Source: Candidatus Izemoplasma sp.
GTDB taxonomy: Bacteria; Bacillota_I; Bacilli_A; Izemoplasmatales; Izemoplasmataceae
Assembly: GCA_029939945.1 (NCBI GenBank)
Contig: JAOZRX010000002.1
Coordinates: 1-64,000, forward strand
Direction of reading: 5' to 3'
DNA: 64,000 bases
Shown in pieces: positions 14,940-41,433 of the stretch. The position numbers and the translations under genes were made by a program. The notes under the pieces were generated by a model. It was not told the DNA's origin. It did not search any database and saw only the letters and a list, made by a program, of their open reading frames with translations. How positions within the stretch are numbered: position 1 is the stretch's first letter; the number at the start of each line of letters is the position of its first letter.

Positions 14940-15437
14940 TCACTCCTTTATTTTCTTAGGTTTACATGTTGTGTGCTCAATTGAATACATAATCCATACA
15001 AATCCAAGTATTACTAATCCTAATGCTGCCAATTTCCAAAGTAAATTACCATCAGGTAAAATAACAGGTGAAAAAGCAATTCCGACTGCGCTAAAGAATG
15101 CAACAACGCATCCCGTGCAACCAAACGTAAGTAATCCAAAGATGAAAGTAAAGAACGGAATAGCATTTGATCCTTTTGGTTCAATCTTTGTTAAATTATA
15201 ATTGATAATACTAAAAGTTACCATAATTGAGGATAAAGCTGCAATAATTATATTAATAAATATATGAGTAAAAACTATTAGAATCCCAAAATTATCTATC
15301 ATAATTTTATAATTAGTGTTTCCTTCAAAATCTAAGAAAGTATAGAGTCCTAAGAAAAAAATAAATATTACAATAATTAAGAGGATGTTTTTTCTTTTGA
15401 GTGCCTCTTTTTTGACTGCTAGTAACATATAAATCAC
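14940..15437 (-). CDS. Hypothetical membrane protein
   Basis: Several TM segments, including GLLTFGCTGCVVAFFSAVGIAFSPVILP; 4-nt spacing to SDR gene. Confidence 0.6.
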   Translation of the reverse strand: MIYMLLAVKKEALKRKNILLIIVIFIFFLGLYTFLDFEGNTNYKIMIDNFGILIVFTHIFINIIIAALSSIMVTFSIINYNLTKIEPKGSNAIPFFTFIFGLLTFGCTGCVVAFFSAVGIAFSPVILPDGNLLWKLAALGLVILGFVWIMYSIEHTTCKPKKIKE

Positions 15438-15688: not shown

Positions 15689-17932
15689 ATGATTAGACTA
15701 GAAAATATATCAAAATATTACTATTCAGGAAATAATGTAGTTCTTGCGTTAAGAAAAATTGATATCGAATTTAGAAAAGGGGAATTTATCGCAATTACTG
15801 GGAAAAGCGGTAGCGGTAAATCAACATTACTGAATGTTTTAAGTGGTCTAGATACTTATGAAGATGGAAAGATGTTTGTTAATGGTGTTGATGTCTCACA
15901 TTACACTGTTAAAGAACTTGAAGTATATCGGAAACAGTATATTGGGTTTGTTTTTCAAGACTACAATATTATTGATAGTTATACTGTTTATCAAAATATA
16001 GAATTAGCATTAATAATTCAGGGATACGATAAGTCAAAAAGAAGAGCAAGAGTACTTGAATTGATTGAGCAAGTTGGATTAAGTCATGTGAAAAATCAAA
16101 AAGCAAGTAAATGTTCAGGTGGTGAAAAACAACGTACTGTAATAGCGAGAGCTCTCGCAAAAGACTGTAGTGTTATTGTTTGTGATGAACCAACGGGTAA
16201 TCTAGATGTAGAATCAAGTAAAAGGATTTTGGAATTACTTCATAATATTAGTTCTGATAAATTAGTAATAGTCGTCACACATAATTATGAGGAACTAAAA
16301 GAATTTGCGACAAGAAAATTAAGACTTCATGATGGAGATATAATTGAAGATAAAATTGAGAAGAAAAATGTCAAACTTGAAGATACTTTCAAAGAATTAA
16401 CACCTTATAAAACAAACCTAACAGATATTTTAAAAATAGCTTTTATAAATATTAAATCAATGCCAAAGAAAGCATTCTTTAGTGGATTAATCATCTCACT
16501 TATGCTTCTTTCATTCGTATTTGCTTTCGGACTTAATTTAAAAGAAAAAAATACATCATTAATAGATAAAACTCCATATTTTGAAAATGCGAATCAAAGT
16601 AGATTGATTGTTACTAAAAGAGATGATTCTGTATTTACATCAGAAGAACTAGATTCATTTGAGAACATCAAATATGTTAGAGGTGTAGTTAACTATGATT
16701 TAGTATTTGATTCAACATATATTAATGCAACATATAATAATGAATATGGATTAAATGAGTTTTTTGAATATAAAATTCTTCCCTCACTTAGCTTAAATAA
16801 TTTTGATTTATTGCGTGGAAGATTGCCAGAAAGTAAACTAGAAGTAGTAATTGGTGAAAATGATCTTTATGATATTGATGATTATATTTCAGTATCTAAT
16901 GAGTTTATTATTAATAAGATTGAGGCAACAGTAACAGACCAATTCACATATAAGATTGTTGGAGTAATTAAGCAAGATTTAAGTATAGAAGAAGCGAAAA
17001 ATGAACTATATTTAACAATAGAAGCCTTAGATGAAATGCGTTATTCTGCATTTGCTGAGAATTCTCAAAAATTGCTTGTGATTGATGATAAAGCTATGTA
17101 TGCAATTGTTGAAGATATAAGAATCGATAATTCTTTAGAAGATTTTGAGGTACTTGGATATGATATGATGCTTTTTGATATGTGCAGAGATTTTGGATAC
17201 AGAAAAGAAGTAATTGATGATTTTGATGCAGGGTTATGTCCTAAAGAGTGGTTTCTTCCCAATCATGATTTTGGGATTAATGTATTCACGAGGTATGAAT
17301 CGTTAAATGATCCGTATGATATAGTATTGGAAACTATTGCGCTTTACCCTCATATATATGGGCAAGGAGTATATGTAAATGAGTATACATACAATCAGTT
17401 ATTTGATGATGAAATTTATCAACCTAGTTTGATTGTTTATGATATGTTTGAGGCTAAACAAGTTAAAGAAGAACTAGAAGAAATGGGATATAATGTTTTT
17501 TATCCTACTGGTGTAATTGATGAAGATGATGCTTTAGAAATAATTATCAGAAATTTACAGTTATCTTTAACTTTGGGCTTAACTGTGCTAGTCGTATATT
17601 TTGTAGGATACTTTGTTATGAGAAACGTAGTAGTGAGTAAAAGAAAAGATTATTTGATTTATAGAAGCGTAGGTGCTTCTAAAAAAACAATTAGTAATGT
17701 ATTGGTAATTGAAATGTTTTACTTAACTGTAATATCATTCATAGTTGTGATGAGTATACTGGTAATAAACGAGAATATTAATAGTGTAATTCCAAGATTA
17801 CTAAGGTACTTCAGTGTTTATAATTACTTTGTTATCCTACTTTTAATTAACTTACTTATGTTGCTAATGTCTAAAAACTTTAACGCAAAAATCTTCAATA
17901 AATCAGTGATTAGTTCACTGAAGGCAGAGTAG
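15689..17932 (+). CDS. ABC transporter, fused ATPase + FtsX/MacB-type permease (cassette 1, protein A)
   Basis: GKSGSGKSTLLNVLSGLD Walker A, CSGGEKQRTVIARALA signature, DEPTGNLD Walker B, followed by TM permease with large extracellular loop. Confidence 0.9.
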   Translation: MIRLENISKYYYSGNNVVLALRKIDIEFRKGEFIAITGKSGSGKSTLLNVLSGLDTYEDGKMFVNGVDVSHYTVKELEVYRKQYIGFVFQDYNIIDSYTVYQNIELALIIQGYDKSKRRARVLELIEQVGLSHVKNQKASKCSGGEKQRTVIARALAKDCSVIVCDEPTGNLDVESSKRILELLHNISSDKLVIVVTHNYEELKEFATRKLRLHDGDIIEDKIEKKNVKLEDTFKELTPYKTNLTDILKIAFINIKSMPKKAFFSGLIISLMLLSFVFAFGLNLKEKNTSLIDKTPYFENANQSRLIVTKRDDSVFTSEELDSFENIKYVRGVVNYDLVFDSTYINATYNNEYGLNEFFEYKILPSLSLNNFDLLRGRLPESKLEVVIGENDLYDIDDYISVSNEFIINKIEATVTDQFTYKIVGVIKQDLSIEEAKNELYLTIEALDEMRYSAFAENSQKLLVIDDKAMYAIVEDIRIDNSLEDFEVLGYDMMLFDMCRDFGYRKEVIDDFDAGLCPKEWFLPNHDFGINVFTRYESLNDPYDIVLETIALYPHIYGQGVYVNEYTYNQLFDDEIYQPSLIVYDMFEAKQVKEELEEMGYNVFYPTGVIDEDDALEIIIRNLQLSLTLGLTVLVVYFVGYFVMRNVVVSKRKDYLIYRSVGASKKTISNVLVIEMFYLTVISFIVVMSILVINENINSVIPRLLRYFSVYNYFVILLLINLLMLLMSKNFNAKIFNKSVISSLKAE

Positions 17933-17940
17933 GTGAAGAC

Positions 17941-20388
17941 ATGATAAAACTAGAAAAAGTAAATAAATATTTTAATAAAGGTAGAGGTAATGAAAATCAT
18001 GTTATTAAAGATATTAATCTTGAATTTCCTGAAACTGGATTAGTTGTAATTTTAGGGTCTTCAGGTAGTGGAAAGACTACACTATTGAATGTCATTAGTG
18101 GAATGGATAATTTTAGTAGTGGGAAAATCACAATTGAAGATAAAAAAATAGAAAAATACGATTCAAAAAAATGGGATGAAGTAAGGAATGATTACATTGG
18201 TTACATCTTCCAAAATTATAACTTATTAAAAGAATTAACAGTACAAGAAAATATTGAATTAGTATTAAAAATTAATGGATTAGAAGATCAAGAAGAGATT
18301 GATAGAAGAGTTGATTTTTTACTTGAAGCAGTTGGAATGATTAACTACAATAACAGAAGAGCAGATCAGTTAAGTGGAGGACAACAACAACGTATTGCCT
18401 TTGTAAGAGCTCTAGTAAAGAATCCTCATGTAATAATTGCTGATGAACCAACTGGGAATCTTGACAGCAAAACTTCAATAGAAATCATGAATATTATCAA
18501 AAATATTTCCAAAGAAAAATTAGTTATTATGGTAACTCATGAACAAGACCTTGCGGAGTTTTATGCTGATAGAATTATTGAGTTATCGAATGGAAATATT
18601 ATTAGTGATGTAAAGAATGAATATTTAGGGGATTTATCTATTATTCAGGAACAAGTTATATTTCTTAAAGACTTAAATCTAAAAACAATAGATAATGATG
18701 ATGTTAATTTGCTAGTTTATTCTGATGAAACAGGTAAAAAATTAGATAAAGTTGGAGTGCAGTTAATAAAAAGAAATGATACACTTTATGTCAAAGTAGA
18801 TTCAAGAAACTATAAGAGAATTAAATATTTAGATACAGATACAGAAATTGAACTAGTTGATTCTCATGCAAAAAACATAGAAGTTGATAAAACAGATTTT
18901 AAATTTAAACAAGAGATAGTGGAGCAGTCAAATAAGAAAAAAGGCGGAGTTATTACTTTTAAAGATTCATTTAGATATGCACTTCGTAAAATGAGTAGTA
19001 TTAATAATGGTGGGAAAATGCTTTACTTTGTACTGGCACTTGTTGGAGCAGTTTTAAGCGTTAGTATTGGTCTGGTTGGGCATTTAATGGATGTTGATGA
19101 GTCACAATTTGTTGATAAGTCTAGAAATTATATTAGGATTTATACTGAAAATATTGATTTGGATGAAGCTCTTGCTTTTGAAGATTATGATTTTATTCGT
19201 GAAGTAACATTTATTGATGAATTGATTGAATTCTCAGTAGAAACAGAATTATTTTATGAAATTAATGGATCAGTTGAAGTTGAAGCTCATCCAAGTGATA
19301 TATCACTACTAAAAAGAGATAGTATTATATATGGTATTTATCCTGAAGATGAGTACGGAATCGTGATTGATTATACTTTGGCTGATAATTTATTATCAGA
19401 CTACGCAGACAGAGGAATTGAGACTTATAAAGATATTTTAGATTGTTCATTTAAAATTCAAGCAAGTGGAGTAGATTTTGATGTCTCTGATGAGTCAAGT
19501 ATTAATATTCCAATAGTTGGAATAAGTAATGATAATTCACCGACAGTTTGGATGGAACCTGAGTTAATATATTCATTTGTTATGTCTTCGTTAATTGATT
19601 ATAATGTTCTAGGAGATGGATTTTGGCTCTCATCAGGTACAATGCCAACATCTTCAAGACATGTGTTAATAAATGTAGAGAGTAGATTAATAAGAGAAGC
19701 TGGAGTTCCAAGTAATATAGGTATTGATTCAGGTAGGTACGAAGTTAAAGGAACGTATACTTATGTTGATAATAATAAGTCTTATGATAGTAGTTTGCTA
19801 TATGTTTCAGAGTTAAAATTTATGGAACAAGAGTATTATAATTATAATCAATCCTCATTTGTTAATTTTCAATTTTTAGCATATGCTGATGATCCACAAT
19901 TCGCAATAGATGAACTAGCTAAATTAGATATTAGAGCAAAAAGTGATTATTTAGATGATTATGATCAATATGTTGACTTCGAATTTGAACAAAACTCTGC
20001 TTTCTATATCTTTTCAATAGTTGGAATAGTTGCTTCTTCAATTAGTATATATTTCATTATGAGAAGTAGTTTAATTTCAAGAATTTATGAAATTAGTGTT
20101 TATAGATCCTTAGGAGCTACAAAAAACAATATTCGTAAAATGTTTATTGTTGAGATAATTCTAACTACTACAATAAGTAGTTTAGTTGGATATATAGCAA
20201 TGATTATCCTATTATTACAAGCTCAACATCAAGTTATTCAACACGTTGAAATAGTAAGATATTCAGTAGATGTTACTCTATATGGAATACTAGCATTATA
20301 TTTAGTTAATATGTTTTTTGGGTTACTTCCTATTAACTTGTTGATAAGAAAAACACCTGCTGATATACTTTCAAAATACGATTTATAA
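17941..20388 (+). CDS. ABC transporter, fused ATPase + FtsX/MacB-type permease (cassette 1, protein B)
   Basis: GSSGSGKTTLLNVISGMD, LSGGQQQRIAFVRALVK, DEPTGNLDSKT, C-terminal permease TMs. Confidence 0.9.
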   Translation: MIKLEKVNKYFNKGRGNENHVIKDINLEFPETGLVVILGSSGSGKTTLLNVISGMDNFSSGKITIEDKKIEKYDSKKWDEVRNDYIGYIFQNYNLLKELTVQENIELVLKINGLEDQEEIDRRVDFLLEAVGMINYNNRRADQLSGGQQQRIAFVRALVKNPHVIIADEPTGNLDSKTSIEIMNIIKNISKEKLVIMVTHEQDLAEFYADRIIELSNGNIISDVKNEYLGDLSIIQEQVIFLKDLNLKTIDNDDVNLLVYSDETGKKLDKVGVQLIKRNDTLYVKVDSRNYKRIKYLDTDTEIELVDSHAKNIEVDKTDFKFKQEIVEQSNKKKGGVITFKDSFRYALRKMSSINNGGKMLYFVLALVGAVLSVSIGLVGHLMDVDESQFVDKSRNYIRIYTENIDLDEALAFEDYDFIREVTFIDELIEFSVETELFYEINGSVEVEAHPSDISLLKRDSIIYGIYPEDEYGIVIDYTLADNLLSDYADRGIETYKDILDCSFKIQASGVDFDVSDESSINIPIVGISNDNSPTVWMEPELIYSFVMSSLIDYNVLGDGFWLSSGTMPTSSRHVLINVESRLIREAGVPSNIGIDSGRYEVKGTYTYVDNNKSYDSSLLYVSELKFMEQEYYNYNQSSFVNFQFLAYADDPQFAIDELAKLDIRAKSDYLDDYDQYVDFEFEQNSAFYIFSIVGIVASSISIYFIMRSSLISRIYEISVYRSLGATKNNIRKMFIVEIILTTTISSLVGYIAMIILLLQAQHQVIQHVEIVRYSVDVTLYGILALYLVNMFFGLLPINLLIRKTPADILSKYDL

Positions 20389-20424: not shown

Positions 20425-20481
20425 CTTGTATATTTACATTAATATGTTAAAATAAATTTTGTATTTAGAAAGGTTAATTTG

Positions 20482-21150
20482 GTGAGTTATATGGAATTAC
20501 TAAAAGAAGATTTAAAAAGAATTCCTTTACTATTTCTTGGATTTGCATTTTTATCCTTTGGAATAGTATTAACAAAAAGAGCAAATCTTGGGATGAACGC
20601 ATGGGGAATATTCCATCAAGGATTATCTGTAAAATTGAATTTATCATTTGGTCTTGTTACTTTTTTAATCGGTCTAGTTATTTTGGGATTCAGTATGTTG
20701 ATTTTAAAATCAAGAGTAGGAATTGGTACAGTTTTAAATATAGCCGTAGTAGGATTAATGATTGATTTGTCTGATTATTTATATACATATATTCCTGATA
20801 CTACAACAAAGAAGATAATTGTAATGCTATTTGGATTAGTAATTATGACTTTTGGAAGAAGTTTATATATAAGTACAAGACTTGGTCCTGGGCCACGTGA
20901 CGGCCTATTTGTTGGATTAAGTAGAATTACAAAGATTGATGTTAAGTATATTAAGCCAACAATTGAGATGACTGTATTATTACTAGGATTCTTACTTGGT
21001 GGGTTAGTAGGATATGGAACAGTATTTTTGATTATTACTTCAGGATACATGGTTCAGTTTTTCTTTAAAGTATTACATTTTGATCCAAAAACTGAAGTTC
21101 AAAGAGGATTTAGTGATTATATTTTCAGCATTAAAAAAGGCACAAATTAA
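20482..21150 (+). CDS. YczE/YitT-like integral membrane protein
   Basis: 'FGIVLTKRANLGMNAWGIFHQGLS', 'GRSLYISTRLGPGPRDGLFVGLS' typical of YczE-like proteins; AAAGG SD before GTG 20482 (or ATG 20491). Confidence 0.8.
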   Translation: MSYMELLKEDLKRIPLLFLGFAFLSFGIVLTKRANLGMNAWGIFHQGLSVKLNLSFGLVTFLIGLVILGFSMLILKSRVGIGTVLNIAVVGLMIDLSDYLYTYIPDTTTKKIIVMLFGLVIMTFGRSLYISTRLGPGPRDGLFVGLSRITKIDVKYIKPTIEMTVLLLGFLLGGLVGYGTVFLIITSGYMVQFFFKVLHFDPKTEVQRGFSDYIFSIKKGTN

Positions 21151-21167: not shown

Positions 21168-24100
21168 CTAACCTTCAGGATTAATAATCTCCATATAGAA
21201 GAATCCATCATCATTCATATAAACATATAATTCTTGAGTAAATACAACAGTCTCCATTGTAAGAGGATTCGTTTGCTCTAAAGTAATGATAAAGTAATTA
21301 TCTTCAACCATTTCAAAATCAAGAAGAACAGTAGTTAAGCCAATATTGAAAGCATCGACTCTAAATTCTACACAATTGAAATTAGGATCAAATTCATTAA
21401 AGTACATTTCACAAATTTCTTGATCTGTAACAATTGGATTTTGGAAATCTGCAAGGAAATTAAGATAGAATTCTTGAGCTTCCTCTGGAGTAATTACTTC
21501 TTTGTAATCCATATGAACAAATTCAATATAGTGGTTTCCATCAGTTAATAGATAAACTCTAAATGGACCATCTTGTGTAAATGTTTCAGTTCCTATTGTC
21601 ATATCAAAGTATACTTTATAATATTCAACACCTTCCTCATCAACTGCAAGTTCAAGGTGATTAAATACTGCATATCCAAATCCAATTAAGAATTCAGTTC
21701 GTCCTTCTACACATTCATTTCCGCCAATAGCTCCACCAAAGTATAAAATGCATAGCTCATCAGGTGAAACAGTAGGGTCAGAATAGTCAAGTGCAAATTG
21801 AGTTAATACAGCGATTGTATCTGCTTCATCAAGTAACACTGCATCTATTGGTAAAGAGATACTTGTATTTACGATAATAACTTCAATTTTTACCATATCA
21901 GGATCATCAAAGTTAGGAATAATTTCAAAACGGAAATTAATAGCTCCACCATCAAGGAAGAAGTAAGTAACTTGACCTTGATAATGAATCATACCCGCTT
22001 CATCGAAGTACCAGTAAAATTCTGGATAATCAGCGAACTCAAATCCTCGTGTTAACAATTCATCTCTTAAAGTAACACATTCAGGATAATCTGCAAAGTA
22101 AGATGTACAGAAAGCTGTAGAATCAATGAATGGATCCATAAATGTTTCGACATAATTATAAAATTCTGCTTCTAATTCAGTAAATAGTGGATCAAAATAA
22201 TCATTGCGTTCCCACATTCCTATTTTAATCATGTCATCTTCCATCCAAAACTGAACATTAAATTCACGGTTGTGAACTTCATTAGTTATCGCATCAATAT
22301 ACTTAAATGATACTACCCACATAAAGTCAAATTCATCAAAGTATAAGTTATCAAGAACAACTTCAAATTCACGGTTAAGTAATTCTTCTCGCATATTGAT
22401 ACACATATCATTGTCTACTCCATCATATACATTACAAAAATCATCTGATGGAATCTCAGGGTCTTGTAAATCTTGAACATATAATTCAAAGAAGTCCCAA
22501 GCATCGGCATAATTAATCATTTCAGGATTATAGTGTTCAAATTCTAGTAAAATATTATCATCTTCAAATACTAATACTCTAAAGTTATCAACAATTTCTT
22601 CAGTATCTCCCATTCTAGTAATAATAATAGTAGCAGTAATCCAATCCACTCCATCACCATCATATAAGTCTTCGATACTTATTATTTCAACTTCAGTAAT
22701 ACTTATTAAGTCTAAAGCTCGTTGATCAATAAATTCTTGATCCATGTAACCTTGGAAGTAAGTATCAATAATATATTGCGTATCAACAGTTGAATCTAAG
22801 TAGTCTTCTAGATACATTTCGTAAACTTCAGTTGCATCAAGGTAACTTAGATAGAAAAATTCAGGTCCGTAATTCCAAACATTAACCATAATATTTCCAA
22901 AGTCATCATAGAAGAATGATAAGTCTAATGAAATATTTACAGCAGTTGCCCCATCATATGCTTCATAAGCATATTGGAAGAAGAATTCATTATCATAAGT
23001 ATGATAGAAGGCAGTCATATAAACGTATCCATCATCAGCAAATACTGATTCTCTCATATTTCCACAATCCAACATAATTTGTTCGTATTTAAGACAGAAT
23101 TCAGTAGTAGGGATTGATGTATCAAAGAATTCTGTAAACATTTGATTTATATACCATAATGCTTCATCTTCAGGGAAATTAAATTGGTAAGTGTCAGATC
23201 CAAATGATATTTTTATTTCATTATATTCACCATAGAAGAATTTAACTTGAACATATTCATCATATAGTGGCATATTGTCAATATCATAGAAATAGAATGT
23301 AACATAATATTCATCACCAAATGGTTCTAGTGCATATGATTGCATATAAATACCTTGACTCATTTCATCGTCACGTTTAGTTATACAGTAAGGATATTCA
23401 TCAGAACCAAAGTATTCACTACAAACAGTGTAACTATCTAAAGAAGTGTCGTTATATTTTGCTACAAATAAATCCATGTAGGCTAATGCTTCTTCGTAAT
23501 TAAGGCTTACATGATTATGATGATCGTCTTCTTTTTGTTCGATTAAATATAAACCATTATCTAGTAAAATAACTCTCATCCAAACAACTATTTCAAATGG
23601 TTCTCCACCTTCATAAGCCATCAGAACAACTTCTAAGAATTCTTGTCCATCAGCGTTATAAGGGTCTGTGAATGATATCACATCATAAGTAAATCCCATA
23701 TCTAATGCATTATTTCTTCCTGCTTCCCATTCACCATCAAGTCGGTTATCAAAATACCAAGTATTGATTTGTTGGAAAGTTATTTCTTCACTGGTATAAT
23801 CAAATACGTATTGTGCAATAATAGAAGTAGCTAAATCGAAATTCAAGTAATTACTTACAGGAGCGTAATAGAAATGCATTTTCAATTCACCAAACTCATC
23901 ATATTCAAATTCTAGATAAACAATATCAGTCCAACTAGTATCATCGTAGTGATTTATAAAAGTAACATGAGCTTCGAATACACCGTCTTGAGGCATTAGA
24001 GCTTCTAAATAAACTTCAAGATGTTCTAATGGCATCGTTGATCTGTTGAATATACAGTTTTCTGAATCTAACCATGGGAAGTACTCTGTACAAAATTCAA

Positions 24101-27100
24101 CATTAGTAATTTCAGTATTCACATAATCTTCTAAAATCATTTGGAAGTATTCATAAGCAATATCATATGGGAATCCTTTGTTTTCACTGTGGAAATCAAC
24201 TTTTAGCAATTCTTCAACTTCATCATACCAGAAGTAGGCATTAACTGTTTCATGCCATAAGTTATTTTCCAAATCATAATATTCAAATTCAATACGATAA
24301 TGGTCGAATTCAGTCGCAAACATGTACAATCTAATATGAACATTATCTAAAATTTCTTGATTACGTTTTTCAACACATCCATTTGCAAAATCTCCACCAA
24401 AGTAAAGTCCGCAAACATCTTCAGATAGTTGAGTGAAATCATTGTAATCAACAAGTAATTGTTCTATTAAAGCAAATGCTTCATCATAAGGATATAAATT
24501 GAAATGAGGGTATAACTCAATTCTTAGCATGTCATCATTATTAAAATATACAAAGACATCAAAATTTTGATAGATTACATCACTCATACTATCAATATAT
24601 TCAAATTCTATTACAAAATGATTATCTTCCATATATAAGTTAAATGCCTCTAAAAGAATACCATCATTTATTTCTTTATCACGTTGAGCAATACATTGGT
24701 CGAACGCATATCCTTCAAATAACTGAGAACATACATCCATACTAGGTATAGTATAATCCATATATTGGGCAACATATTCTTCTATTGCTAAATATAATTC
24801 ATCGTAATCTATTGGACTAAAGTCATCTTTATGGAATTCAGCTTTCAATTCACCAAATTCATCATAATAGAAGGTTACATACAAGTAATCGTAAGTAGTA
24901 TCAGTACCATTATATATTTCAAACTCTACTTCGAAGAAGTCATCCTTTTGCCAAATATTGAAGTTTACAATAGTCTCACCATTTTCTAAATCGGCTTGTC
25001 TATTTTCCATGCATCCTTCAGCAAAATCAGGACTGAAATAAAGATTACAAACATACTCATCTGTTAAGTCAAGATCTTGATAGTCTCTAATTAGGTTTTC
25101 CATAAATGCCCAAATTTCATTAAAATCAATATAGTTTTCAGGATCATCTATGATATCAAAGTAATATCTTCCATCTCCTATGTCTATAATTCTAATATAG
25201 GCAGTCATAGTTTCCTCATCTTCACCATCAATTATTTCGAAAGTAACAACTAAAAAGTCAAATGGTTCTTCAATAGGATCTAATACAGATACTAGAGTAA
25301 ATACATCGATTTCATCGATCATTTTTTGTCTGTCATCGAAGAACATTAAATCCATTGAATTATCGAAGTATTTTAAGTTTATTTCTTCATCAGTAACATC
25401 AGTACTTAAATAGTCATTGAAGAACATCTCAACAATACCAAATGCTTCAGCAGCATTTAACCATTGAGGTTGATCTTCAAATATAATCTCGACATAATAT
25501 CGATCATGATCAATTTGTTTAATTCTCATTTGAACTATAAATGTCTCAATATCACCATCATATAATCTTTGTAAAGTAACATTTAAGAAATCAAATGGTT
25601 CTTCTGTAGGATCTTCAACTGAAATAACAGACATAATAGCTTCTTCATCAAAATTCTTTTGTCTATCTTCAAAGAAGAATTCATCCATCGTATTATCAAA
25701 GAATCTTTCATTAATTGCTTCATCTAAAACTGATTCATCGTTATATGCAATAAAGAATTGATCAAGTAATGGGAATGCATCCGTAGCATTAAGCCATTCT
25801 TCATAATTAGTAAATAAAATATCAAAATAATATCTGTCTTCATCAACTTGCATAAGTCTCATTTGAACAACAGTAGTCTCAGTATCTTCACCTTTTGTTC
25901 TTACTATAGTAACATTCAAATACTCAAAAGGTTCTTCAGTAGGATCTTCAACTAATGTAACTTCAAGTATTGGTAAATCTAAAAGATCTTCATCTCTATC
26001 AGCGAAGAATTCTAAATCCATCTTATTGTCAAAATATTTCTCATTAAATTGTTCATTAGTAATAGTGTCATTAAGGTAATCAGCTAAGAATAATTGGATA
26101 ACTACTAATGCTTCTTCACCTTCTAACCAATCACCATAGTCATTAAATAATATATCAAAATAGTAACTATCTTCATCTAATTGAAGAATACTCATTTGAA
26201 CAATAATTGTTTCAGAATATTCACCCTTAGTTCTTACTAAGGTAGCAGATAACAGTTCAAGTGGCGCTTCAATAGGGTCTTCAACTAAAGTAACAATAAA
26301 TTCAGGTAAATCTATAAGGTCGCCATCTCTATCATTAAAGAACTCTTCATCCATCATATTATTAAAATATAATTGATTAAATTGTTCATTAGTAATAGTA
26401 TCATCAAGATAATCATCTAGGAATCCTTGGATAACATCAAGTGCATCAGCAGAAGTTAAATATCCATATTCAATAGGATCATCATCATGAATGAATTCCA
26501 TTACAATATTACCCTCAGAGTCATAAGAGAAGGTAACTTCTTCAAATTCAGTTTCAGGAGTAGTGATTTCATCATCAGACATCGACAATTCAACTTCAAA
26601 AACTCCATCTCCTTCATCTGTCATTCCATCAAAACCAACGTCTATTCCTAAAGCAAGAGATTCATCTCTTTCCGTGGCACAACCCTCTTGTTCAGGGAAA
26701 TACTCAGCACAAACATCAGTAGATAAAAGTGTATCATCTAAGTAATCATCAATAAAGCTTTGGAAATAAGCATATGCATCATCATATGAAACTTCCAAAT
26801 CAGTAGGATCAATAGTAATTATTTCATAGCTCCATAAGTTTATATACATTAGGCCTTCAACATTTACTAGACCAATTGTATAAATTACTTGTGAGAATCT
26901 ATCACTTGATTCTACAGTAACTTCAAAAATATCATCAGTAGATAGTGTAACTTTTTTTGTAACATCTACAGGAGTATAGTCAGCATAATCAGCATGTACT
27001 AAATCTGTTCTTGAAGCACGACAAGAGTCAAGTAATTCAGTGTTAGTAACTGAGAAGTAATCATCGCAAAAAGTCTCATTCTCTGTGTTGTTAAAATCAT

Positions 27101-27299
27101 CAAGAATTCTATTGAAAACATTTAAAACAACATCGTCTTCTAAGTCTCCAACAAGGTCTCCTTGACATATTTCTGAAGTAGGGTTTTCACGACAGAACTC
27201 CTCTGAAATCTCATCAATCTGTGTCGGTGAAATCAAATCACAGCCTGAAAGACCAATAGTAACAAGAACTATCGTCATAACTAAAAATAGTTTTTTCAT
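21168..27299 (-). CDS. Giant (2043 aa) acidic repeat lipoprotein of unknown function
   Basis: N-terminal MKKLFLVMTIVLVTIGLSGC lipobox; about 18 degenerate ~105-115-aa repeats; AGGAGG SD upstream. Confidence 0.85.
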   Translation of the reverse strand: MKKLFLVMTIVLVTIGLSGCDLISPTQIDEISEEFCRENPTSEICQGDLVGDLEDDVVLNVFNRILDDFNNTENETFCDDYFSVTNTELLDSCRASRTDLVHADYADYTPVDVTKKVTLSTDDIFEVTVESSDRFSQVIYTIGLVNVEGLMYINLWSYEIITIDPTDLEVSYDDAYAYFQSFIDDYLDDTLLSTDVCAEYFPEQEGCATERDESLALGIDVGFDGMTDEGDGVFEVELSMSDDEITTPETEFEEVTFSYDSEGNIVMEFIHDDDPIEYGYLTSADALDVIQGFLDDYLDDTITNEQFNQLYFNNMMDEEFFNDRDGDLIDLPEFIVTLVEDPIEAPLELLSATLVRTKGEYSETIIVQMSILQLDEDSYYFDILFNDYGDWLEGEEALVVIQLFLADYLNDTITNEQFNEKYFDNKMDLEFFADRDEDLLDLPILEVTLVEDPTEEPFEYLNVTIVRTKGEDTETTVVQMRLMQVDEDRYYFDILFTNYEEWLNATDAFPLLDQFFIAYNDESVLDEAINERFFDNTMDEFFFEDRQKNFDEEAIMSVISVEDPTEEPFDFLNVTLQRLYDGDIETFIVQMRIKQIDHDRYYVEIIFEDQPQWLNAAEAFGIVEMFFNDYLSTDVTDEEINLKYFDNSMDLMFFDDRQKMIDEIDVFTLVSVLDPIEEPFDFLVVTFEIIDGEDEETMTAYIRIIDIGDGRYYFDIIDDPENYIDFNEIWAFMENLIRDYQDLDLTDEYVCNLYFSPDFAEGCMENRQADLENGETIVNFNIWQKDDFFEVEFEIYNGTDTTYDYLYVTFYYDEFGELKAEFHKDDFSPIDYDELYLAIEEYVAQYMDYTIPSMDVCSQLFEGYAFDQCIAQRDKEINDGILLEAFNLYMEDNHFVIEFEYIDSMSDVIYQNFDVFVYFNNDDMLRIELYPHFNLYPYDEAFALIEQLLVDYNDFTQLSEDVCGLYFGGDFANGCVEKRNQEILDNVHIRLYMFATEFDHYRIEFEYYDLENNLWHETVNAYFWYDEVEELLKVDFHSENKGFPYDIAYEYFQMILEDYVNTEITNVEFCTEYFPWLDSENCIFNRSTMPLEHLEVYLEALMPQDGVFEAHVTFINHYDDTSWTDIVYLEFEYDEFGELKMHFYYAPVSNYLNFDLATSIIAQYVFDYTSEEITFQQINTWYFDNRLDGEWEAGRNNALDMGFTYDVISFTDPYNADGQEFLEVVLMAYEGGEPFEIVVWMRVILLDNGLYLIEQKEDDHHNHVSLNYEEALAYMDLFVAKYNDTSLDSYTVCSEYFGSDEYPYCITKRDDEMSQGIYMQSYALEPFGDEYYVTFYFYDIDNMPLYDEYVQVKFFYGEYNEIKISFGSDTYQFNFPEDEALWYINQMFTEFFDTSIPTTEFCLKYEQIMLDCGNMRESVFADDGYVYMTAFYHTYDNEFFFQYAYEAYDGATAVNISLDLSFFYDDFGNIMVNVWNYGPEFFYLSYLDATEVYEMYLEDYLDSTVDTQYIIDTYFQGYMDQEFIDQRALDLISITEVEIISIEDLYDGDGVDWITATIIITRMGDTEEIVDNFRVLVFEDDNILLEFEHYNPEMINYADAWDFFELYVQDLQDPEIPSDDFCNVYDGVDNDMCINMREELLNREFEVVLDNLYFDEFDFMWVVSFKYIDAITNEVHNREFNVQFWMEDDMIKIGMWERNDYFDPLFTELEAEFYNYVETFMDPFIDSTAFCTSYFADYPECVTLRDELLTRGFEFADYPEFYWYFDEAGMIHYQGQVTYFFLDGGAINFRFEIIPNFDDPDMVKIEVIIVNTSISLPIDAVLLDEADTIAVLTQFALDYSDPTVSPDELCILYFGGAIGGNECVEGRTEFLIGFGYAVFNHLELAVDEEGVEYYKVYFDMTIGTETFTQDGPFRVYLLTDGNHYIEFVHMDYKEVITPEEAQEFYLNFLADFQNPIVTDQEICEMYFNEFDPNFNCVEFRVDAFNIGLTTVLLDFEMVEDNYFIITLEQTNPLTMETVVFTQELYVYMNDDGFFYMEIINPEG
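21180..27130 (-). repeat. About 18 tandem protein repeats of ~110 aa, in Cys-pair (type A) and Cys-less (type B) subtypes
   Basis: Recurring helix '...A...I..F..DY.D..I....FC..YF.....C...R...L' followed by beta-rich '...FEVEFEY.......V.F.YD..G...IEF'; repeats 3-6 (about 25130-26467) are the most similar to each other. Confidence 0.75.
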
Positions 27300-27431
27300 T
27301 TATTATCCTCCTTATTTTTTTATACAACTTTATTATATAGAATATATGTGAATATTTTATGAATTTATATATAAAAACATTTATATTGTCATAATTATAA
27401 AAAAAGATACCTGGTTTAGGCATCTTATATA

Positions 27432-27935
27432 TTACTCGTATTCGTTCATTAGTTTTAAATAGTAATCCTTATTGCTTTTGACAGCTATAATTTCTTCTTT
27501 GCTTAGTTCTCTAATAATTTTCATTGGATTTCCTACAACTAATGTATTTTTTGGGACTTTTTTATTTGGAGGAACAACACAACCGGCCCCAACTAGACTA
27601 TTTTCACCAACAAATGCTCCATCAAGTATAATGCTTCCCATACCAATAAGACAGTTATCAGAAACAGTAGCAGCATGAATTATTGCAGCATGTCCAACTG
27701 TTACATTTTTACCGATATGTGTTGGGAGACCTAGATTTGTATGAATAACACAATTATCCTGAATATTTGTATTTTCTAGGATTGTTACTGGAGCCATATC
27801 ACCTCTTATAGTAACGTTATACCAAACACTAACATTATCAGAAATAGTAACATCACCTGCAATAATTGCATTTTGAAATATTTTTGCTCTTTTAGAAATA
27901 CTTGGAGTAATTCCATTATGTTCGACTATAAACAT
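27432..27935 (-). CDS. Gamma-carbonic anhydrase / hexapeptide-repeat family protein (YrdA-like)
   Basis: NVSVWYNVTIRGDMAPVTILENTNIQDNCVIHTNLG...VTVGHAAIIHAATVSDNCLIGMGS left-handed beta-helix motifs. Confidence 0.88.
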   Translation of the reverse strand: MFIVEHNGITPSISKRAKIFQNAIIAGDVTISDNVSVWYNVTIRGDMAPVTILENTNIQDNCVIHTNLGLPTHIGKNVTVGHAAIIHAATVSDNCLIGMGSIILDGAFVGENSLVGAGCVVPPNKKVPKNTLVVGNPMKIIRELSKEEIIAVKSNKDYYLKLMNEYE

Positions 27936-36758: not shown

Positions 36759-38975
36759 ATGTTAAAACTTGTCAACGTCTCAAAGTATTATTATTCTAAT
36801 GAAAAAATTGCTTTAGGACTTAGAAAAGTTGATTTAGAATTTCGCATTGGTGAATTTGTTGCGATTACTGGTGAAAGCGGAAGTGGTAAATCAACTCTTT
36901 TGAATGTGATAAGTGGATTAGATACTTATGAACTTGGAGAAATGTATATAAATGGGGACGAAATCTCTCATTACACAGTAAAAGAATTAGAGGATTACCG
37001 AAGACAATATATTGGCTTCGTATTTCAAAATTATAATATCGTTGATAGTTATACTGTTCTTCAAAATGTAGAAATGGCATTAATTGTTCAAGGGTATGAT
37101 AAGAAAAAAAGAAGAGCAAGAGCAACGGAATTAATTGATAAAGTTGGATTAAAAAATAGAATCAATCACAAAGCTAGTAAATTATCAGGTGGAGAAAAAC
37201 AAAGAACCGTAATAGCTAGGGCTTTAGCTAAAGACTGTAAGATTATTGTTTGTGATGAACCAACTGGGAATTTAGATTCTGAATCTTCTAAAATGGTATT
37301 CAAATTATTGAGTGAAATATCAAAAGATAAATTAGTAATCGTAGTAACACATAATTTTACTGCTATTAAGGATTACGCAAATAGAATGATTAGATTGTTT
37401 GATGGAGAGATAGTAGAGGATAAGAAATATAAAAAAACTAAAATATATGAGGAAATAGAAATCTCTAAAAAGAGTTTCTATGGCAGTTATTGGGATATAT
37501 TTAAGATATCGATAAACAATATTTTTTCAGTTCCAAAGAAAACATTATTTACAGTATTAGTAACTTTATTTATAATCTCTGTTTTTGTTTTTGCTTATGG
37601 TAGTAATTTAAAACAAAAAAACACTTCAGGAGTTTTTGAAACAACATATTTTGATAATTCTGGACCTGCTAGGCTAATTCTTACAAAATATGATCGAACA
37701 GAATTTACACTTTCAGAATTAGAAGATTTGAAAAGTATTGAATTTGTTCGTGAAGTAATTAACTATGATGTTGTACTTGACACTTTACTAACGAGTAAAT
37801 ATTCTAATCCTAATTATAACTATGATGAGTTTATTGAATATAAAGTACTTGCTGCAGCTTCTCTAGATTTATTTGATTTAAAAGCAGGAAGATTACCTAA
37901 GAATGATTTAGAAGTTGTTATAGCAGAAAATGAGCAATATGATTTAGGAGGATTTATCTCGCTTTCTAACTCGATTCATGTTAGTCAACGATCAGGAGAA
38001 ACTACTGAGGATTATACATTTAAAATTGTTGGTACGATCGATAGTAATAACTCTATATTTGATGGTACTGAGGATTTATATTTTACTAGTGGGGCAATCG
38101 ACAAATTTAGATTTGATGCTTTATTTCCTTATAATCAAATGTTTATAGATGTTGATAATTTACATATCTTTAGTGTTTATCAAGACGTTAGGATTGATAA
38201 TGATCTTGAAGATTTTCAATTACTAGGATACGACGCAATGTTTTATGATATGTGTCGGAAATATAATATTGAAGTCTGTGTAATTGATGATTTCCTCTTA
38301 GAACACGATTTTTCGGTAGTATCATTATCTAGATTTGAGAATAGTATGGAAAATGTAAATGTTAACTTTATTAGTGTTCCATACGTTGAAGCAGCATATG
38401 GACAAGCTATCTATATGAATGAATTGACTTTTCAAACATTTTTAGAAGAAGCTATTTATCAGCCTAGTGTGGTTGTTTACGATATGTACGAAGCAAAGTT
38501 TGTAAAAGAAGAACTTGAAGACCTTGGATATAATGTTTTTTATCCTAATGGAGTAGTTACAATCGAAGAAGGATTACTGATTGTATTAAAAGATGTTCAA
38601 TTATTCTTAACATTAACTTTTACTATGGGAGTAGTATACTTTGTTGGGTATTTTATTATGAGAAACGTAATGATTAGCAAGAAAAAGGATTATTTAATTT
38701 ATCGTAGTGTCGGAGCTTCAAAAAAAGTCATTAATGCAATTTCAATTACTGAGATAATGATTATCACTATATTCTCATTTATGTTTTTGATGTCTATATT
38801 AATGATTAATGAAAATTATAAAACACCTTTACCAAGGTTATTAAGATATTTTGAACCACTAAACTATATTATTCTATTAGTAACAATATTTGTTTTAATG
38901 TTGTTGCTTGGAAGAAGATTTAATAAAATGATCTTCAATAAAAGTGTTATTACGTCACTAAGAGATATGACGTGA
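36759..38975 (+). CDS. ABC transporter, fused ATPase + FtsX/MacB-type permease (cassette 2, protein A)
   Basis: GESGSGKSTLLNVISGLDTYELGEM, LSGGEKQRTVIARALAKDC, DEPTGNLDSESS; collinear with 15689..17932. Confidence 0.9.
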   Translation: MLKLVNVSKYYYSNEKIALGLRKVDLEFRIGEFVAITGESGSGKSTLLNVISGLDTYELGEMYINGDEISHYTVKELEDYRRQYIGFVFQNYNIVDSYTVLQNVEMALIVQGYDKKKRRARATELIDKVGLKNRINHKASKLSGGEKQRTVIARALAKDCKIIVCDEPTGNLDSESSKMVFKLLSEISKDKLVIVVTHNFTAIKDYANRMIRLFDGEIVEDKKYKKTKIYEEIEISKKSFYGSYWDIFKISINNIFSVPKKTLFTVLVTLFIISVFVFAYGSNLKQKNTSGVFETTYFDNSGPARLILTKYDRTEFTLSELEDLKSIEFVREVINYDVVLDTLLTSKYSNPNYNYDEFIEYKVLAAASLDLFDLKAGRLPKNDLEVVIAENEQYDLGGFISLSNSIHVSQRSGETTEDYTFKIVGTIDSNNSIFDGTEDLYFTSGAIDKFRFDALFPYNQMFIDVDNLHIFSVYQDVRIDNDLEDFQLLGYDAMFYDMCRKYNIEVCVIDDFLLEHDFSVVSLSRFENSMENVNVNFISVPYVEAAYGQAIYMNELTFQTFLEEAIYQPSVVVYDMYEAKFVKEELEDLGYNVFYPNGVVTIEEGLLIVLKDVQLFLTLTFTMGVVYFVGYFIMRNVMISKKKDYLIYRSVGASKKVINAISITEIMIITIFSFMFLMSILMINENYKTPLPRLLRYFEPLNYIILLVTIFVLMLLLGRRFNKMIFNKSVITSLRDMT

Positions 38976-38979
38976 TATT

Positions 38980-41433
38980 ATGATAAAACTAGAAAAGATA
39001 AATAAGTACTTTAATAAAGGTAAAGGTAATGAATTACATGTTTTAAAAGATATTAATCTTACGCTACCTGATAAGGGATTAGTAGTTATTTTGGGTGTTT
39101 CGGGGAGTGGAAAAACAACACTACTAAATATCGTTGGTGGACTTGATAAACCAACTTCTGGAATTGTGAAGTTTAATAATCATATATTTGATAAGTACTA
39201 TTCACTAAAATGGGATAAAATAAGAAATCAAGAAATTGGATATATTTTTCAAAATTATAGTCTTCTTCATGAATTAACAGTATTTGATAATATTGAAATG
39301 GTTTTAAAAATGAAAGGTATTAGTGAAGAAGAAGAGATTCATAAAAGAGTTGACTATATAACTGAAAAATTAGGAATGTTAAATTATCTAGATAGAAACT
39401 CTAATGCATTATCAGGTGGGCAACAACAACGTGTTGCGATAGCTAGAGCTTTAGTTAAGAATCCTAAGTTAGTTATTGCTGATGAACCAACAGGGAATTT
39501 AGATAGTAAAACGACTATTGAAATTATTAATATAATTAAGACTATTTCTGAAGAGAAACTAGTTATTTTAGTTACTCATGAAACTGAGATTGCAGAGTTT
39601 TATGCAGATAGAATAATAAAAATACATGATGGAAGAATTGTAAAAGATTATGATAATAAAGTTAAGGGTAATTTAGAAGTAAGACAAGAGCATCTTGTAT
39701 ACCTAAAGGATTTAAAGAAACAACAAGGTTCATTTGGAAATGTTGATTTTACTTCTTATAGCGATGATTTTTCTGAGAAGAAAGACAATATTGGAATTGA
39801 TTTAATCCAAAGAAATCAAACACTGTATTTAAAAGTAAAAAGCGATGAGCATAAACGAATTAAGTACTTAGATAGGCATAGTGAAATAAAACTTTTAGAT
39901 GAACATTACACTCCACAAGAAAATTTAGACGAAAACACTGGGTTTAACTTTGATAAAATTATTAGTGAAGATAAAAACAAAAAAATAAAAAGTGTCATCT
40001 CAATTAAAGATAGTATAAGATACTCAATAAGAAAAATAGATAATTTAACGTATGGTGGTAAAATGCTGTATGTTGTTTTAGGTATGATTGGAGCTTTAAT
40101 AGCTATTTCAATTGGACTAATTGGACAAATATTTAGTGTAAGTGATGATGAATTCATACTAACAAATAGAAACTATATAAACGTTGTAGTTGATGACTTA
40201 ATGTATGACGGAGTAATGGAGTTTGAAGATTTAGAATATATTGAAAATCTCAATCTAATTAACGAACAAATAGAGTTTTTGATTGAGACAGAACCTTATT
40301 ATGAAGTTAAAAGTCCAATTCTTCTAGATGCACACCCAAGTGATATTTCAATCTTAAAAATAGAGGATATTGAGTATGGAAGGTTACCAGAAAATAATCT
40401 TGAAGTAGTTGTAGATAAAATGGTAGCTGATAGAATCATAAGATTACATAAAGAAAGAGGAATTGAATCATATGAAGATATAATAAATCAGACTATAAAA
40501 ATTCAAGCTACAGGTCTTTCAAGTGATTACTCTAAAGATACTATGCTTCATTACGATATTGTTGGAGTGAGTAATGATGAATCTCCTACAATCTGGTTAT
40601 CAGAAGAACTAATGTTTTCAATAGCATTAAATTCAGTGATTGATTATACTATTTTAGGTGATGGATTTGAACTCGTTACTGGAGTTATGCCTAGTGCTGA
40701 TTATCAAATATTACTTCATGAAAATAGTAAAGTAATTAGAAATGGTAATGTACCAAGCTTTATTGGAATTGAGTCAGGTCAATATGAGGTTGTAGGAACA
40801 TATCGATATATAGATAATGGTTTATATACTGATATTAATGGATTACTTGTAAGTAATTTAGAAATTATGAAAACAGCCTATTTTTATCAGAATAATTTTG
40901 AATTTACTGGAACAAATTTTTTAGCTTATGTTGAAAATACAGATATTGCAATTGAAGAATTATCATTAATTGAAATATATGCTACAAGTAATTATGAAGA
41001 AGATTTAGAAGATTTTAAAGATCATGAGTTTGTTAATTCTATTGGATTACTAATCTTTGCAATAGTTGGGATTATATCCTCAGGAATAAGCATTCTCTTT
41101 GTAATGAGATCAAGCTTATCTTCAAGGTTATATGAGATAAGCGTTTTAAGAGCACTCGGTGCTGCTAAAAGAGATATAAGAAAAATGTTTATTGTTGAAA
41201 TTGTGATTATATCAACAATAAGTTCCTTAATTGGTTATATTATTATGGTTGCTATATTGATGAAATCACAAGATCTTGTTGACGAATATGTTGAGATTCT
41301 TTACTACTCACCAGTATCACTGATTTTAGGAGTTATATCTTTATATTTAATTAATGTGCTCTTTGGACTATTGCCTGTAAACATATTGTTGTTTAAAACA
41401 CCTGCCAAAATATTATCTCAATATGATATTTAA
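38980..41433 (+). CDS. ABC transporter, fused ATPase + FtsX/MacB-type permease (cassette 2, protein B)
   Basis: GVSGSGKTTLLNIVGGLD, LSGGQQQRVAIARALVKNP, DEPTGNLDSKTT; collinear with 17941..20388. Confidence 0.9.
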   Translation: MIKLEKINKYFNKGKGNELHVLKDINLTLPDKGLVVILGVSGSGKTTLLNIVGGLDKPTSGIVKFNNHIFDKYYSLKWDKIRNQEIGYIFQNYSLLHELTVFDNIEMVLKMKGISEEEEIHKRVDYITEKLGMLNYLDRNSNALSGGQQQRVAIARALVKNPKLVIADEPTGNLDSKTTIEIINIIKTISEEKLVILVTHETEIAEFYADRIIKIHDGRIVKDYDNKVKGNLEVRQEHLVYLKDLKKQQGSFGNVDFTSYSDDFSEKKDNIGIDLIQRNQTLYLKVKSDEHKRIKYLDRHSEIKLLDEHYTPQENLDENTGFNFDKIISEDKNKKIKSVISIKDSIRYSIRKIDNLTYGGKMLYVVLGMIGALIAISIGLIGQIFSVSDDEFILTNRNYINVVVDDLMYDGVMEFEDLEYIENLNLINEQIEFLIETEPYYEVKSPILLDAHPSDISILKIEDIEYGRLPENNLEVVVDKMVADRIIRLHKERGIESYEDIINQTIKIQATGLSSDYSKDTMLHYDIVGVSNDESPTIWLSEELMFSIALNSVIDYTILGDGFELVTGVMPSADYQILLHENSKVIRNGNVPSFIGIESGQYEVVGTYRYIDNGLYTDINGLLVSNLEIMKTAYFYQNNFEFTGTNFLAYVENTDIAIEELSLIEIYATSNYEEDLEDFKDHEFVNSIGLLIFAIVGIISSGISILFVMRSSLSSRLYEISVLRALGAAKRDIRKMFIVEIVIISTISSLIGYIIMVAILMKSQDLVDEYVEILYYSPVSLILGVISLYLINVLFGLLPVNILLFKTPAKILSQYDI

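Follow-up and report, generated by a model that had tools for sequence, protein, structure and literature searches.

A 2043-aa lipoprotein encoded within a 64,000-nt stretch of Candidatus Izemoplasma sp. DNA (contig JAOZRX010000002.1; hereafter the window) carries 18 acidic repeat units, each predicted to adopt an NTF2-like fold, behind a lipid anchor, and we consider it on balance probable that this string of beads forms a long stalk or an adhesin-like coat on a wall-less cell. The protein belongs to what is apparently an undescribed family of surface stalks, found only in Izemoplasmatales among the genomes searched, and no description of long tandem arrays of NTF2-like domains was found in the open literature searched. 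With it, the known building blocks of bacterial surface stalks would gain a new type. The gene and its parts are located as follows, all units having been delimited by a parse anchored on the Cys and YFDNxMD motifs and checked by leave-one-out profiles.

21168 to 27299, minus strand: repeat lipoprotein gene (2043 aa, ATG start, stop codon included)
27240 to 27299, minus strand: lipoprotein signal peptide and lipobox LSGC with the lipidated Cys20 (read from the sequence; conserved in homologues)
27165 to 27194, minus strand: membrane-proximal Cys36-Cys45 pair (CRENPTSEIC), invariant in homologues
26790 to 27146, minus strand: unit 1 (Cys78/Cys93), of all units the most alike between the two congeners
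26457 to 26789, minus strand: unit 2, two Cys
25128 to 26456, minus strand: units 3-6, no Cys, a locally expanded block (also from the congener comparison)
23844 to 25127, minus strand: units 7-10, two Cys each
24171 to 24494, minus strand: unit 9, modelled as a single unit
23502 to 23843, minus strand: unit 11, no Cys, within the three-unit model
22848 to 23501, minus strand: units 12-13, two Cys each
22515 to 22847, minus strand: unit 14, no Cys
21171 to 22514, minus strand: units 15-18, two Cys each

The units are 106-119 aa long. A BLOSUM autocorrelation of the protein peaks at a lag of 111 (z = 9.2) with harmonics at 222 and 333, and each unit was recovered by a profile of the other 17, with E-values from 5.6e-7 (unit 1) to 1.7e-32 (unit 4) and scores of 16 to 99 bits, the best of 50 shuffles of their own reaching at most about 10. 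An earlier note on this DNA had described a lipobox followed by about 18 units of ~110 aa, and 18 is exactly the number computed here; to that description we add the minus strand, the Cys36-Cys45 pair by the anchor and a net charge of about -366 summed across the 18 units. Searches of the genome, the assembly of which is about 85% complete, found no second copy.

The N-terminus is that of a bacterial lipoprotein, with a signal peptide ending in the lipobox LSGC (residues 17-20), which is kept in 12 homologues. Residues C36, P40 and C45 are likewise invariant in 12 homologues, most of which have the motif CRENPxxxxC. A 225-aa lipoprotein in another genome (L033, on contig C81 of G004) has a similar leader (SGCEEASELDLTQIENIVEEYCV) and is apparently a short relative of the leader region. 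An AAGGAGG ribosome site of its own precedes the gene, a hairpin and T run lie directly past the stop codon, and a further terminator-like hairpin lies upstream, so that the gene appears from these signals to be monocistronic. Its surroundings are the following.

27404 to 27426, minus strand: terminator-like hairpin, 3' of the gamma-carbonic-anhydrase-like gene and upstream of the lipoprotein gene
27432 to 27935, minus strand: gamma-carbonic-anhydrase-like hexapeptide protein, one border of the slot
20479 to 21150, plus strand: YczE/YitT-like membrane protein, the other border of the slot

The lipoprotein gene lies between the YczE-like and gamma-carbonic-anhydrase-like genes both here and in a congener (G001). 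In G003 and G004 the two border genes enclose nothing and are separated by about 46 and 38 bp, and G005 and G007 likewise have no lipoprotein gene at the slot. The gene is thus an accessory one that occupies a fixed slot in this genus. The gamma-carbonic-anhydrase-like neighbour was considered as a functional partner and rejected, as it is present in 30 of 31 genomes and stays where the lipoprotein is absent.

To obtain a structural view of a unit, an AlphaFold2 model was made of unit 9 from a 68-row alignment of the units of the window and of four fetched loci. The model has a mean pLDDT of 95.1 and consists of three helices (H3-17, H24-31 and H34-49) followed by four strands (alpha3-beta4). 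These helices pack on a curved antiparallel sheet to form a cone, as in the NTF2-like superfamily, and Foldseek matched the unit to ketosteroid isomerase, NTF2-like, SnoaL, ARC6/PARC6, VirB8 and designed NTF2 proteins with probabilities near 1, E-values of about 5e-3 at best and TM-scores mostly of 0.4-0.6. The alpha-then-beta, NTF2-like architecture suggested earlier is therefore borne out by the model, though, because the E-values are weak, the unit would be NTF2-like at the level of the fold and not by family membership. The SnoaL and ketosteroid-isomerase-like proteins (3hx8, 3er7) and the intermembrane domains of ARC6/PARC6 (5u9o) share the order of helices then curved sheet (Foldseek probability about 1.0, TM about 0.5-0.6), whereas the units here are short and four-stranded, bear a Cys pair that spans helices 2 and 3, and are repeated up to about 20 times. 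In sequence, the units matched none of the known NTF2-like families of Pfam or PDB. More generally, neither Pfam nor NCBIfam gave a model above cut-off, the PDB sequences gave no match, and PHROGs gave marginal matches only, without function; the protein thus has no full-length match above cut-off to a characterised family in these four collections, in keeping with the earlier note, which had assigned none. A viral structure library gave chance-level matches only.

Units 10-12, of which the middle one lacks Cys (C0) while its neighbours have two (C2), were modelled together from an alignment of non-overlapping windows, overlapping ones having aligned badly. Helices and strands follow in identical order in the C2 and C0 units (pLDDT 88), which agrees with the earlier expectation that both subtypes would have the same predicted fold. 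The pTM of 0.66 means that the arrangement between units, and hence a rod shape, is not established by this model. Its best matches are proteins with tandem NTF2 domains, namely iota-carbonic anhydrase (7c5y, E 8e-6), TcpC (3ub1) and then OrfG, with TM-scores of only about 0.2 across the three units. TcpC, OrfG and related VirB8-like conjugation proteins of Gram-positive bacteria are membrane-attached and, like the lipoprotein, have NTF2-like domains in tandem. They have two such domains, however, while the lipoprotein has a lipid anchor and many, and no conjugation genes were found among the neighbours examined.

The match to iota-carbonic anhydrase (COG4337; 7c5x/7c5y) raises the question of whether each unit might act as an enzyme or as a cup that binds a small molecule, as that protein too has several NTF2-like domains per chain, up to five, with an HHSS-type motif (PMC8425729), and a gamma-carbonic-anhydrase-like gene adjoins that of the lipoprotein. 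We regard this as very unlikely. The HHSS-type motif characteristic of iota-carbonic anhydrases is absent from the units (a pattern scan for HHxSS-type motifs gave 0 of 214), no conserved position is a His (there being about 1.45 His per unit), the three-unit TM-scores are low, and the adjoining gene is near-universal and persists without the lipoprotein. Moreover, the most conserved residues of the unit, the Cys pair, Y31, F32, R44, D16 and D19, sit in its helical part and not in the sheet, where no catalytic-looking set was seen among the conserved positions. Since these residues look structural, a scaffold, stalk or adhesin is favoured over an enzyme.

Cysteines are distributed among the units in an all-or-none fashion, as the earlier note had claimed. 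Twelve units (1, 2, 7-10, 12, 13 and 15-18) have a pair, six (3-6, 11 and 14) have no Cys and none has a single one. The rule extends to the family: in about 20 homologues, 157 units have two Cys, 83 none, one has three and none has one, where independent presence at each position would be estimated to leave roughly 4 in 10 units with a single Cys. The same is seen at the two positions themselves in the 68-row alignment (both Cys in 53 rows, neither in 15, one alone in 0), and in each of the 19 distinct homologues whose lipobox was recognised, the Cys after the lipidated one are even in number. An even count, with Cys present or absent in pairs, is the pattern of a disulfide-containing protein. 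The exception with three Cys is the third unit of L063 (a 383-aa frame in G069), the only homologue in a sister family, and its total after the lipidated Cys still looks even. A second type of homologue (L025, L026 and L029, about 1100-1290 aa) keeps the pair in unit 1 and lacks Cys in nearly all internal units.

On a tree of units built with the Cys masked, Cys state is clustered, with 28 changes compared with a mean of 58 for shuffled labels. With branches below 90 support collapsed at least 7 changes remain, and 2 at 95. It therefore seems that both Cys of a pair were acquired or lost jointly on more than one occasion, the exact number being soft on a poorly resolved tree. Of the two subtypes put forward in the earlier note, both the C2 and the C0 form exist, but they do not derive from a single old split.

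The single-unit model places Cys28 on helix 2 and Cys40 on helix 3; a two-residue turn separates these adjacent helices, so that the two residues are plausibly close in space. Could they instead form metal or redox-active sites? Such sites would fit the strict anaerobiosis of the cultured relative zrk13 (PMC8397711) and the failure to find a recognised exported oxidase. A metal site nonetheless seems less likely because each unit offers only two Cys, with no third conserved ligand, and in C0 units both are replaced together by non-Cys residues, in pairs such as N/F, when a metal site should have left its other conserved ligands behind. Overall we judge metal or redox sites quite unlikely, and infer structural disulfides.

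As to how such disulfides would be made, Pfam searches found no DsbB among 90 Izemoplasmatales genomes; VKOR, searched for in the present genome alone (about 85% complete), was not found either. Matches to Thioredoxin_4 and DSBA were considered as exported oxidases, but those that were read look cytosolic and FrnE-like, with a CxxC within about 25 aa of the start of the frame and no signal peptide. A 165-aa membrane protein encoded in the window (14940-15437, minus strand), in whose aligned copies CT[GSP]C is invariant and a C-terminal Cys present, and which has no Pfam match, was likewise considered as a dedicated thiol oxidase; occurring in 67 of the 90 genomes, it has no special link to the lipoprotein. 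Small-molecule oxidants or unrecognised enzymes might oxidise the unit Cys. In obligate anaerobes, Cys tends to be kept out of exported proteins (PMC12453122), and the family raises the question of how strict anaerobes lacking a recognised exported Dsb or VKOR cope with as many as 38 paired Cys in an exported protein.

In whole-genome searches homologues were found in 14 of the 90 Izemoplasmatales genomes, nearly all of one family, and in none of those from outside the order among 396 sampled from the phylum; no relative was found in viral contigs. An initial search of genome contigs using the entire protein had given no match. Those homologue records that have names belong to Mycoplasmatota, Tenericutes or Candidatus Izimaplasma MAGs. 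Two members, of 2101 and 1198 aa, are present in G028, taken as the cultured Xianfuyuplasma coldseepsis zrk13, and it is because of this cultured relative that the family is testable, with localisation, redox state and structure directly measurable. In one homologue (L057) six units are preceded by three Bact_surface_Ig-like domains (PF16403, E 1.6e-18). The Ig fold is unrelated to that of the units, yet the presence of these surface stalk domains on the same polypeptide supports an extracellular stalk role. L057 and another homologue, L056 (G017), are on short contigs.

Apparently complete members have about 7 to 20 units, and the orthologue in the congener G001 has 15. Units 1, 2 and 7-18 pair with it one to one and in order, each scoring higher against its positional orthologue than against any paralogue, while units 3-6 all match the single unit 3 of G001 best. 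The difference of 18 and 15 would thus reflect one local change, an expansion of units 3-6 as the earlier note had proposed, or a contraction in G001. A variable decoy or shield against phages or predators, in which length variation is itself the function, might be read from the range in unit number, this local expansion and the presence or absence at one slot. The one-to-one orthology of most units, however, points to slow turnover apart from units 3-6, and even units 3 and 4, 65% identical in protein, have only 74% DNA identity, unlike a fast tandem repeat, which makes a decoy highly improbable.

The same positional conservation bears on the acidity of the chain. With its large negative charge, and on cells of a family lacking a wall (PMC8397711), the protein might serve as a charged, hydrated layer that binds Ca2+, Mg2+ or other cations and has no specific partner. 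That individual units are conserved in position points to something beyond bulk charge, and the Ca2+ binding supposed in the earlier note finds no support in motifs, since an EF-hand pattern occurs in 1 of 214 units compared with 1.15 in shuffles. Such a coat seems unlikely.

We return to the stalk. The lipoprotein would be exported, lipidated at Cys20 and held by this anchor in the cell's single membrane, with no distinct wall around it; cells of zrk13 have been described as lacking such a wall (PMC8397711). From there 18 compact beads, each of three helices and then a four-stranded sheet, would project outwards, presumably for tens of nanometres if the chain is extended, judging by bead size. 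In 12 of them a disulfide would probably staple helix 2 to helix 3, and in the other 6 non-Cys residues would take its place. The strongly acidic, positionally ordered array may hold binding faces away from the membrane. Computation shows the repeats, the Cys rule, the lipobox, the family, the slot and the predicted fold, from which surface exposure, disulfides and the stalk or adhesin role are inferred. In favour of this role we count the lipobox and conserved N-terminus, the 18 units, the single-unit model with its pLDDT of 95, the like secondary structure of C2 and C0 units, the co-occurrence and even number of Cys, the positional orthology, the Ig-like domains of L057, the fixed slot, the helical location of the most conserved residues and the wall-less cells of the cultured relative; against it count the pTM of the three-unit model, the anaerobic relative and the lack of a recognised DsbB or VKOR. 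A more specific form, in which disulfide-stapled minimal NTF2-like beads, up to about 20, make up the surface stalk of wall-less anaerobic Izemoplasmatales and are folded oxidatively outside the known Dsb and VKOR systems, is a tentative proposal that we hold to be rather doubtful.

Elsewhere in the window, the plus strand carries large, similarly sized ORFs in two tandem pairs, at 15689-20388 (747/815 aa) and 36759-41433 (738/817 aa). The ORFs of the first pair look like fusions of an ABC transporter ATPase with a permease; this pair is found at the same locus in L101 and is absent from the slot in L097 and L098. This large ABC transporter gene pair is a separate presence/absence feature of the lipoprotein locus, shared by the window and L101.
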